NCBI GenBank assembly: GCA_035540895.1
Contig: DATLFR010000237.1
Span: 1-37,699, forward strand
Direction of reading: 5' to 3'
DNA: 37,699 bases
DNA from: Actinomycetota bacterium
GTDB lineage: Bacteria > Actinomycetota > JAICYB01
The translations under genes were made by a program, and so were the position numbers. Position 1 is the stretch's first letter. Each line of letters opens with the position of its first letter. Below, one piece after another: positions 21,271 to 27,839 of this stretch. The notes under the pieces are model-generated. The model was not told where the DNA came from. It saw only the letters and a list, made by a program, of their open reading frames with translations, and made no database searches.

Positions 21271-21936
21271 ATGAACAGACTGAAGGAAGTACCTCTGGCT
21301 CGCCTCGTAGGGACGGTCTTCGGAGCCATATACGTGGTCGTGGGGCTCGCCGGGTTCCTGGTCACATCCGGCATCGGTTTCGCCGAGCGGACGGGGGCCA
21401 CGCTCATCGCCTTCGATGTCAACCCCCTGCACAACCTGGTCCACCTCGGCATCGGCGTGGCCCTGATCGTGGCCGCCAAGGCGGGCACGTCCCCGGCCCG
21501 GGTGATGAACACGGTGGTCGGCGGCACCTACCTGCTCGTGGGCCTGGCGGGGTTGGTCATCATGGACGGCTCCCTCAACATCCTGGCGCTCAACCAGGCG
21601 GACAACGCGTTGCACCTGGCCAGCGCGGCGGTACTGCTCGCTGCCGGCCTGCACCGAGCGGGCGCGACCAGCCTCGGCAACTCCGCGACGGACGACTCGC
21701 AGGAGGACGACACCGCGGATGACCCGACGATCCGCCAGAACGCGCCCGCACCCTCCCGCAGGACGCTCACCACCGGGGACACGATCGAGCGCCGGGGCGT
21801 CTACCGCTGCTCGTGCGGACGCTTCGCTGTCCTGCTCGAGGAGGGCGGGACCCTGCCCCAGTGCACCGTCGGATCGGACCACCACTTCACCTTCAGCGGC
21901 GTCCCGAAGCGCAAGGCCACCGCGCGAGCCAGCTGA
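21271..21936 (+). CDS. DUF4383 membrane protein with C-terminal Cys/His tail
   Basis: Residues 1-130 form a DUF4383 domain with four predicted helices (ARLVGTVFGAIYVVVGLAGFL, FDVNPLHNLVHLGIGVALIV, VVGGTYLLVGLAGLVI, ADNALHLASAAVLLAAGL). A long polar linker rich in Asp and Ser follows. Residues 175-207 hold CSC (180-182), Cys198 and HH (204-205), resembling a small zinc-ribbon tail of the type that begins GVYRC. I do not know this fusion as a named family. The ATG has an excellent AGGAGG ribosome site six bases upstream. A strong hairpin (21945-21973) follows the stop. Confidence 0.85.
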   Translation: MNRLKEVPLARLVGTVFGAIYVVVGLAGFLVTSGIGFAERTGATLIAFDVNPLHNLVHLGIGVALIVAAKAGTSPARVMNTVVGGTYLLVGLAGLVIMDGSLNILALNQADNALHLASAAVLLAAGLHRAGATSLGNSATDDSQEDDTADDPTIRQNAPAPSRRTLTTGDTIERRGVYRCSCGRFAVLLEEGGTLPQCTVGSDHHFTFSGVPKRKATARAS

Positions 21937-21944
21937 GCAAGGTA

Positions 21945-21973
21945 GGGGCCCGCGTCATCAAGGCGCGGGCCCC
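21945..21973 (+). terminator. Strong terminator-like hairpin
   Basis: GGGGCCCGCG (21945-21954) and CGCGGGCCCC (21964-21973) are exact reverse complements around a 9-base loop, starting eight bases after the DUF4383 stop. No T-run follows, which is common for proposed actinobacterial terminators. Confidence 0.65.
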
Positions 21974-21981
21974 ACGGCGGC

Positions 21982-22130
21982 GCCAAGGGCCTCGAGCTCA
22001 CGTCGTCGTCGTGACCGGACCTGCCGAGATCGGCGAGGCGGGGCTTCGCGGCCTGTACGTCAGCCTGACCCGCGCGACGCGGCGGCTGGTCGTCGTGCAC
22101 GTCGACGACCTTCCGGATGTGCTGCTCTGA
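21982..22130 (+). pseudogene. Remnant of a UvrD-family helicase C-terminus
   Basis: The stretch encodes AKGLE (motif V of UvrD/HelD-type superfamily 1 helicases) in one frame, and after a two-base shift at 21997-21998 HVVVVTGPAEI, then GLRGLYVSLTRATRRLVVVH (motif VI) to a stop at 22128-22130. Intact helicases read AKGLEFD-VVVV without a break. Nothing upstream resembles the rest of a helicase; the terminator hairpin of the previous gene lies directly before it. About 50 codons of a gene normally above 600 codons are left, with no start codon, so this is a decayed fragment. Confidence 0.65.
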
Positions 22131-22137
22131 TCACCCG

Positions 22138-23359
22138 TCAGCTCGTGTCGCAGGGTTCGGGCTCGGGTTCGAACAGCCACTCGAAGCGCTCCCGCACCGC
22201 GGCTCCCACGCCGCGGGGGCCGGGTCGGTGGATGCGGCCGTCCGGCTTGATCACCACGATCCTCCCGCGCGGGTCGCCCCGCAGCCGCCACCCCGGGCGG
22301 TGGATCAGCCGATGGTGGAACCGGCAGATCAGGATCAGGTTGTCCTCGTCGGTCCGTCCGCCGTCGACCCAGTGCTCGACGTGGTGGGCGTGCAGCCCCC
22401 ATGTGCGCGTGCAGCCTTCGACCCGACAGCAGCGGTCCCGCCTGCGCAGGTGCCGCATCATGTGGGGGGGGACCTTCCGGGAGGCGCGGCCCACGCCGAG
22501 CACGCTACCGTCCTCGCCGTGGACCAGCCATTCGATGCGGGCGTCGCAGATGAGGAAGCGGAGCGTGCTGTTCGCTACGGGGCGGTCGCGGACGGTCGCC
22601 GTACCGGGCCCGCCGGTCAGCGCGGAGGCGTCGACGTGGACGACGACCGTCGCTCGGTCGGCGTCCGGGTCGCTCCCGAGCCGGACGCCGGCGAGCTCGA
22701 CGAGCGCGTCCGCGTGGCGCTGGTCGATCTCGTCGTACAGCCCCGTCTCCGGGTTCGGTCCCATCTGTTCGCCCACGCGCGACAGCGCGTCGTGGAGAAC
22801 GGCCCTCCGGCCCGTTGAGGCGTCCGGACAGCCGGAGGGCGGACGCGTAGTCGTCCCATCGCAGCCGCAGGAACCGTCTCCCGTGGCCCTCCGCCTCCTC
22901 CTCCTCGTTCACGCGCCGCGCTTCGCGGGCTCGCCGCCGCAGAGCGGCGACCGTCATGCCGCGGGCGGCCTCCGCCCAGTCCTGCTCGTCGGACGGGGTG
23001 ACGAATATCGTCAGCTCGACGACCTGCTCCCACGTGAGTAGCCCCTCGACGAGGAGCCGCCGGACCGTAGGGAGCTCCCGGAGGGCGCGCCCCACCCGCA
23101 CCAGGTCGCGCGCCATCGACAGCGACCGGCCGAACCGCGCCGCGACCCACTCCTCGAAGGTGGGGGCGAGGTCCTGCTTCCAGGCCTCCTTCTCCTCCAG
23201 GACCGGGAGCGCGTCGAGGACGGCGGCGAGGGCTGCGCCGCTGAGGCCGAACATCTCCTCGATGAACGACTCGAGGTCGTGCGGGGGTAGAAACCTCAGC
23301 TCTCTCACGGACTCTCCGGCACGAACATCTGTTCCCATGGTAGAAGAAGCCAGTGACAT
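22138..23359 (-). pseudogene. DUF222/HNH endonuclease gene with a frameshift
   Basis: The first frame from ATG 23359 gives a DUF222 domain (FEEWVAARFGRSLSMARDL, LLTWEQVVELTIF, ASALRLSGRLNGPE). The second frame continues exactly with AVLHDALSRVG, then PETGLYDEIDQRHADALVEL and a complete HNH domain (GLHAHHVEHWVDGGRTDEDN, CRFHHRLIH). Joining them needs one base fewer in the run CCC at 22803-22805 (plus strand). The restored protein would be about 406 residues, typical of the actinobacterial DUF222-HNH (13E12-type) family, whose role is unclear. ATG 23359 follows the stop of the upstream gene with no gap. A sequence error or real decay are both possible. Confidence 0.78.
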
Positions 23360-24154
23360 TCACAGCCACCGCAGCGACCCTCCGTCTCCCCCCGTCACCG
23401 AGCACCGGCGGATCGCCGCGAACAGGCCCCCGTCCGTCGGCTCCCACCGCACCGCCTGCCCCGTCCGGGCGCGCCGCGTCGTCGGCCGGTTCAGGCGCAC
23501 CATGAGGTGCCCGTCCACGACGGCGGCTCCCTCCTCGGCAACCTTGACCCAGGACGGCTGGACGTAGAGGGCGGCCGCGGTGCTGCCCTCGGACGACCAC
23601 CCGTAAGCGTGGGCTGTCTTCGTCTCCCGGACGACGTCCACGCGTAGCGCGACGTCCGGATCGGGAGCCGTCTCCCGGACCGCCACCGCCACCAGTCGTC
23701 TGATCTCGGCGTCGCGTCCCCGCGCCGGTAGCTGGGGAGCCCGGAACGCCCGGTCGAGCTGGATCAGCGTCCGGACCCCCACGGGAGCCTGCGCGGCCAC
23801 CGCCAGGCGGCGCAGGTGACCGGTCATCCAGTGCAGCCGACGGACGCTCTCGGGGTCGCGTGCGAGCCGGGAGATGTGTCGCTCGTTCAGCTCCGCCGCC
23901 CGCACGAGATCCTCGGCCGAGGCGTTACCGGTCAGGAGCGCGCGCGTCCCCGATCCCTCGAGCGGCGCCCGCGAGAGCGAGACGAGCGCCATGCAAGGGG
24001 GGGCAGCCGCGCCGAGGGCGGCCAGAACGCCTTCCGGCTCGTCGTCGTGGTCCAGCGCCCGGACCTCCCCTGCCTCCCAGACGAGCTCGTGGCGGCGGCC
24101 GAGACAGTCGAGCTCGAAGCGCAGCGGACCGAAACGGGCCAGACCGTCTGTCAT
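23360..24154 (-). CDS. Uncharacterised two-domain protein (fused copy)
   Basis: The 264-residue protein is not one I recognise. Residues 1-60 form a compact domain with GPLRFELDC, RHELVWEAG, LDHDDEPEG and AALG...PC. The middle is helical (ERHISRLARDPESVRRLHW), followed by LRRLAVAAQ..VRTLIQLDRAF and a beta-rich part ending SLRWL. It aligns end to end with the two smaller proteins encoded just upstream: N-terminal domain with the 105-residue protein, rest with the 154-residue protein. No signal peptide or membrane segment is seen. ATG 24154 overlaps the upstream stop (ATGA), and its own stop abuts the HNH gene. Confidence 0.8.
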   Translation of the reverse strand: MTDGLARFGPLRFELDCLGRRHELVWEAGEVRALDHDDEPEGVLAALGAAAPPCMALVSLSRAPLEGSGTRALLTGNASAEDLVRAAELNERHISRLARDPESVRRLHWMTGHLRRLAVAAQAPVGVRTLIQLDRAFRAPQLPARGRDAEIRRLVAVAVRETAPDPDVALRVDVVRETKTAHAYGWSSEGSTAAALYVQPSWVKVAEEGAAVVDGHLMVRLNRPTTRRARTGQAVRWEPTDGGLFAAIRRCSVTGGDGGSLRWL

Positions 24155-24615
24155 AGCCACTTCAGCGTCCACCGTCCCTCCCACTCCTCGATCTCGATGG
24201 GGAACGCTACCGCCTCCCACCCGTCCCCGGCCGACATCCAGCGGAGCGCCTCCGTCCCACGCACGTGATCGCCCGGCTCCCACCCCGGTTTGATGACGAA
24301 CGTCCGCTCCACCTCGCTCGCGCCGAGCGCATGCAGCCTCTGGCGCCAGGTCCGACGTAGCCACACGCCGACCACGCCTCGGTGGCCGTCGGTCCAGCCG
24401 ATGACCCCGGGCTGGTCGAACGAGACGAAGACCCGAACCTTGACCGGTCCCGGGGCGGTGCGGGTGACGATGGCGGTCGCTGCGTCCCGTATCGGCTTCT
24501 CGACGGGGGTCGGGTTGGGCGGCGTGCGCCGATAGGCGAGCTCGATCGCGAGCAGCGTCCGGAGACGGATCGGGAGCCGGCCGGCGAGCAGTCGCAGCCG
24601 TGCCGCGTCCCTCAT
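24151..24615 (-). CDS. Uncharacterised protein (C-terminal half of split copy)
   Basis: This 154-residue protein matches the C-terminal two thirds of the 264-residue neighbour: [23 protein letters not shown] against LRRLAVAA...VGVRTLIQLDRAFR, then [16 protein letters not shown] against IRRLVAVAVRETAPDP, GW and EALRW against GW and QAVRW, and the ends LKWL against LRWL. The family is unknown to me. The beta-rich second half has several Trp. ATG 24615 overlaps the stop of the preceding gene (ATGA) and its stop overlaps the next ATG in the same way, so three genes are translated as a chain. Confidence 0.8.
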
Positions 24616-24929
24616 ATGTGCCCCACGGACCTGCTGGCCAGGATCCGTCGTGCCCTATGCTCCTCGTCGGCGGCCCGCTCGGGTGGCCAGCCGCGCAGGG
24701 CCCCATCCACGCGCGACCAGCTATTCGGGTCGAGCCGCCAGAGCGTGTCGACCGTGAGGCAGGCCGCGGCCTCGCCTCCCAGCGCCGCGTACGCCCGCTC
24801 CGCCTCCACGTCGTGGTCGGGGAAGCTCAACCTCCCCGCCTCCCACGTGACCCGGTGCCGCGTCCCGGAGCAGTCGACCTGCACCGTCTCCGGGCCCAGC
24901 TCGGCCAGCCCGCCCCCTGTCGCACCCAC
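24612..24929 (-). CDS. Uncharacterised protein (N-terminal half of split copy)
   Basis: The 105-residue protein matches residues 1-100 of the 264-residue protein two genes downstream. Over 50 aligned positions, from [10 protein letters not shown] to AACLTV, 22 are identical by my count with no gap; the shared signature is DC-x-G-x-RH, WEAG, DHD, AALG and C. The rest is helical and charged. Start GTG 24929 is the first in-frame start that covers the domain; its ribosome site is weak, so the start is uncertain. It is the first gene of the minus-strand operon and is divergent from uvrA with 48 bases between. Confidence 0.72.
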
Positions 24930-24938: not shown

Positions 24939-24977
24939 CGTCCCCGAACTGGCGTTCCGAGCGAAAGACCTTCCCCT

Positions 24978-27839
<2,862 letters not shown>

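Follow-up and report, generated by a model that had tools for sequence, protein, structure and literature searches.

Several described systems pair a MoxR ATPase with a VWA protein. Among them are NorQ/NorD, RavA/ViaA, and other MoxR-VWA pairs (PMC9976466, PMC3893208). MoxR proteins that act with a VWA partner are chaperones for remodelling or for metal insertion (PMC9976466). In the MoxR-vWA ternary systems, for which VMAP, iSTAND, FtsH, and beta-propeller classes are described (Kaur et al. 2020, PMC7159879), a third linked component joins the pair. In Deinococcus deserti, a MoxR/VWA operon (Deide_18730-18690) lies under a radiation-response motif (PMC2669436).

I analysed a stretch of 37,699 nucleotides from an Actinomycetota bacterium (assembly GCA_035540895.1, contig DATLFR010000237.1), called the window below. 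Three small genes next to uvrA encode members of a protein family that has no name yet, whose relatives are linked to MoxR and DUF2201 genes. The likeness to the ternary systems consists of a MoxR AAA+ gene, a VWA gene, and a third linked, diversifying component. Here, however, the VWA partner is a DUF2201 protein (a zincin-like domain plus VWA), which is unnamed in PMC7159879, and the third component is a protein with a CHHC module, whose copies are spread beyond the core operon. This component was not recognised as VMAP, iSTAND, FtsH, or beta-propeller, and no Pfam, NCBIfam, or PADLOC family was found for it. An adjacent MoxR gene and a VWA partner were found at one operon elsewhere in the same genome (contig C126) and at Streptomyces loci, but not at the window locus. 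Compared with NorQ/NorD and RavA/ViaA, which share the MoxR ATPase and the VWA protein, a DUF2201_N domain and a third CHHC gene are added; no metalloenzyme client gene of a known kind was recognised beside the MoxR-DUF2201 locus. The D. deserti operon likewise has MoxR and VWA genes under a DNA-damage motif, but the phylum and the motif are different.

Three coupled genes and the CHHC module

24929-24612, minus: W105, 105-residue gene with a GTG start, CHHC module plus linker tail
24732..24887, minus: CHHC module (N-domain) of W105, profile match of 92.8 bits, E 3e-26
24612..24615, minus: ATGA overlap of W105 and W154
24615-24151, minus: W154, 154-residue gene with an ATG start, a stand-alone C-domain, the sole unfused one found
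24151..24154, minus: ATGA overlap of W154 and W264
24154-23360, minus: W264, 264-residue gene with an ATG start, fused CHHC module and C-domain
23966..24121, minus: CHHC module of W264, residues C17, H22, H36, C54
23363..23794, minus: C-domain of W264

The initial annotation had described three ATGA-coupled minus-strand genes of these lengths, and the ORFs and both overlaps were found again. All three show a strong coding signal: third codon positions in W105, W154, and W264 have a GC content of 0.90, 0.88, and 0.88, respectively, and in comparison with the sister-genus genes the first two codon positions are better conserved than the third. The similarity of W105 to the first part of W264, claimed as 22 of 50 positions, was measured at 42% identity over 53 ungapped columns (tblastn E 1.2e-10). 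The similarity of W154 to the rest of W264 also held (24% identity, E 3.6e-4), and none of 200 shuffles scored as well.

It had also been stated that neither domain could be assigned to a named family, and profile searches gave no convincing match. None of the three proteins matched a Pfam or NCBIfam family at E<10 or any PADLOC model, and the single PHROG match was weak, limited to W264 (E 0.0098), and to a family of unknown function. A known-family identity was dropped after Pfam, NCBIfam, PADLOC, PHROGs, and PDB sequence profiles yielded nothing convincing. A viral origin was not backed either; a scan of viral contigs with one short pattern found no relatives of the window proteins. The AlphaFold2 model of W264 is weak (pLDDT 61.9). 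That of a fused relative, L051, is good (pLDDT 84.5, pTM 0.74), with two domains folded confidently: the module consists of three strands and two helices and is followed by a helical linker and an alpha/beta C-domain. A Foldseek search of PDB and BFVD with this L051 model gave no match at E<=0.001, and no solved relative was found.

The N-part is a module of about 54 residues with an invariant C, H, H, and C. These residues (C7, H12, H26, and C44) are unchanged in all 25 sequences compared, a diverse set drawn from several families and classes with a mean column identity of 50%. This looks like a small metal site, probably one for zinc. The window's own genome has seven copies of the module, and a sister genus (G001) has 11. 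Three paralogues have neighbours conserved in both genera, namely uvrA, the DUF2201 operon by a DAHP-synthase-like gene, and an rfbC-like gene (the latter two gene names were assigned by eye). The C-terminal parts of the module proteins differ: some have the C-domain of the window type, L004p and L017 have DUF2087 (PF09860) at the C-end, and L007p has an unnamed part. The window proteins differ from DUF2087 proteins in bearing another, unnamed C-domain. The module-DUF2087 genes, L004 and L017, lie beside an rfbC-type epimerase gene in both genera. In module proteins of the Streptomyces type, the N-terminal region is long and either has or lacks ankyrin repeats. A short-pattern scan over all phyla returned four loci, all four in Actinomycetota.

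Some of these loci show features of their own. At L101 (G707:C34), DUF2201 is preceded by a tandem array of three module-plus-ankyrin genes, another local expansion. At L068 (G001:C102), two fused paralogues lie on either side of the gene for a Clp N-domain-like product, as judged by eye. Also by eye, a leucine-rich-repeat-like ORF (start ...QPTPVRCPAIEHPDI) was seen just before the module gene at the ankyrin-type loci L073, L107, and L112.

Is the split of one copy into W105 and W154 an old trait? The initial annotation had read the operon as a duplicated unit with one copy split and the other fused. The paralogy was confirmed, and the split proved to be a one-off, derived state: the split form was seen only here among about 14 confident C-domains, and all the other confident C-domain sites in G000, G001, and G146 are in frame with an N-module. 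L010, the fused gene beside uvrA in the sister genus, is orthologous to W264 (46% identity), and the two pair in the tree with moderate support, while the concatenated W105 and W154 sequence groups with the fused sister-genus genes L011 and L012. Because of this placement and the census, the fused form is most likely ancestral, and the opposite order, an ancestral split that was fused later, was rejected on the same two grounds.

The split may have arisen by fission, by decay, or by an assembly indel. Both frames are open for about 39 nt upstream of the W105/W154 overlap, so that a single indel there would fuse the genes, and the adjacent DUF222-HNH gene is frameshifted too; an indel artefact or decay may thus account for the split. 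In that case, W105 and W154 would not be a working bipartite copy but a fused gene broken by a 1-nt indel, through an assembly error or recent decay, and W264 alone would be functional. The singularity of the split and an internal stop in the C-domain match of one G001 family member point the same way. Nevertheless, the ATGA overlap is exact, both halves are complete with the break falling in the variable linker, and the coding signal is strong on either side of the break. I take the broken-gene reading as a serious one, leaning slightly against it.

Linkage with MoxR and DUF2201 genes

The distribution of the module was assessed in 395 Actinomycetes genomes. It was found in 43 of them, and DUF2201_N in 59; all 43 module genomes have both (hypergeometric 1.6e-44, a figure that ignores the relatedness of genomes). 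The linkage is near-obligate: for 52 of the 53 module sites, a DUF2201_N site is no more than 5.4 kb away, usually together with a MoxR ATPase gene. Since 38 of the 89 DUF2201 sites have no module nearby, the dependence is one-way. The window's class has a third genome, G002, which lacks both the module and DUF2201.

In the window's own genome, the operon on C126 consists of MoxR (identified by AAA_5 and bpMoxR matches), DUF2201, and then three fused N-C genes. The order MoxR, DUF2201, and fused gene recurs at L109, and in G001, L050, L051, and G146 a fused gene lies immediately 3′ of DUF2201. In Streptomyces, a module-bearing gene annotated as 'hypothetical protein' precedes the genes for a 'MoxR family ATPase' and a 'VWA-like domain-containing protein'. 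The VWA part of the DUF2201 protein was recognised by Pfam VWA_2/VWA_CoxE matches. The own genome has a single MoxR-DUF2201 pair. At the window locus itself, no MoxR gene and no VWA/DUF2201 gene is adjacent; the conserved pair lies on another contig and was therefore invisible to the initial annotation.

The DUF2201 partners fall into two kinds. The glutamate of the HExxH motif is lost in 10 of 10 partners of the fused N-C type (HHVGH, HHTGH, HLTSH, HLTGH, or HLTCH), whereas the motif is intact in 19 of 19 tree members of the 480-aa/ankyrin type. The DUF2201 tree divides cleanly into these two groups, and thus the loss counts as one evolutionary event. The substitution predicts a non-peptidase DUF2201 partner in the window's lineage.

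The uvrA neighbourhood and LexA-type boxes

24978..27839, plus: uvrA, the divergent neighbour
24945..24958, strand unassigned: LexA/SOS-type palindrome, GGAACGCCAGTTCG in minus-strand letters, with the uvrA start (24978) on one side and the W105 start (24929) on the other
23322..23335, strand unassigned: second LexA-type box GGAACAGATGTTCG, at the 5′ end of the DUF222-HNH ORF

The three genes had been placed between a helicase remnant/HNH gene and uvrA. Indeed, uvrA lies upstream, and a DUF222-HNH gene and a UvrD C-terminal remnant lie downstream. The DUF222-HNH gene (22138-23359, minus) is read in two frames (22505-23359 and 22138-22776), being frameshifted or mis-assembled, and the short UvrD C-terminal helicase remnant (21813-22130, plus) has a weak Pfam match (E 0.00098). 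The link with DNA metabolism, suggested before as a possibility, gains evidence from the LexA-type box between uvrA and the operon, which is conserved in the sister genus: a palindrome of the same kind lies between uvrA and L010 (G001, C35:17253). The window palindrome fits the published Gram-positive LexA consensus with the core GAACN4GTTC (PMC2248561). The pattern SGAACNNNNGTTCG has 23 sites in the genome against one for the reversed pattern, among them sites that precede recA, dnaB, a DUF222 gene, a LysM gene, a DUF6504/dnaE2 cassette, uvrA/W105, and MoxR. The box of the own-genome MoxR gene is 39 nt before the start; the probability that a site falls within 250 nt by chance is about 0.002.

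In L166 (G000:C63:22500-25000), a LexA-type box at 1255 accompanies another DUF222 gene, divergent from a gene with a ChlI domain (Mg-chelatase-like). In L173 (G000:C119), a double LexA-type box (1196 and 1214) precedes a small LysM protein, which presumably resembles SOS cell-division inhibitors.

No LexA box was found at the MoxR loci of G146, L050, and L051, and thus SOS control is lineage-specific at best; the sister-genus MoxR gene is truncated by a contig end and was left out of this comparison. The SOS box as a property of the whole system was dropped for the same absence, and MoxR-linked loci spanning 430 kb contain only five core palindromes. The DUF222-HNH gene was considered as a fourth member of the coupled operon, as it abuts W264. 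Since the second box lies inside its assumed 5′ end, a separate promoter is likelier; the true start is probably just downstream of the 23322-23335 box, and the gene is likely to have its own promoter.

The box at 24945 may act on uvrA alone. Judging from the promoter region with a predicted DNA-damage switch common to uvrA and the window genes, however, these genes are probably damage-induced helpers or clients of the MoxR-DUF2201 machine. Alternatively, the uvrA-linked copies might have left the machine and serve in the damage response on their own, as DNA binders or regulators for instance, with the module as an inherited zinc knuckle. Three observations would suit such a departure: the window copies are unlinked to the single DUF2201 gene, the promoter that they share with uvrA is conserved in two genera, and other paralogues carry DUF2087, which is associated with transcription regulators. 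On the other hand, the module is almost exclusive to DUF2201 genomes and places, and both are absent in G002. I consider independent action unlikely.

A possible MoxR-DUF2201 machine with CHHC-tagged clients

The best explanation, evenly balanced in my estimate when taken as a whole, is that the window genes are paralogues of the third gene in the MoxR/DUF2201 operon, expanded in this lineage, and encode damage-inducible adaptors or clients of the MoxR-DUF2201 machine, with the zinc-binding CHHC module as a tag. The module would bind zinc and be recognised by, or delivered to, the remodelling machine, and the variable part (C-domain, DUF2087, ankyrin, or 480-aa types) would be the cargo or effector. 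In the window's lineage, the uvrA-side copies would be made after DNA damage and would act with, or be remodelled by, the single MoxR-DUF2201 pair; W105 and W154, if real, would act as one bipartite copy. I infer the binding, the metal, and the direction of action in this model; all statements on function are computational, and the genomes were sampled within Actinomycetota. A fuller version is rather doubtful: a damage-inducible machine with a lost zincin glutamate would handle CHHC-tagged clients or adaptors, some from the uvrA promoter and one as two coupled genes.

Small overlapping genes and a lineage-specific expansion could also suggest a toxin-antitoxin or anti-phage defence cassette, and a role in conflict has been proposed for the MoxR-VWA ternary systems (PMC7159879). 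However, the window proteins have no PADLOC match and the limited pattern scan found none in viral contigs. The synteny retained in two genera and the LexA box common to uvrA indicate a resident function, so that a defence cassette seems very improbable.

The CHHC protein family provides a defining partner for a MoxR-DUF2201 operon type that many Actinobacteria have; in Streptomyces, which is one of them, the third gene bears the annotation 'hypothetical'. It gives a testable link between a MoxR-VWA chaperone system and the SOS response, and the CHHC module offers a convenient marker by which clients or adaptors of the MoxR-DUF2201 machine can be sought elsewhere in a genome.
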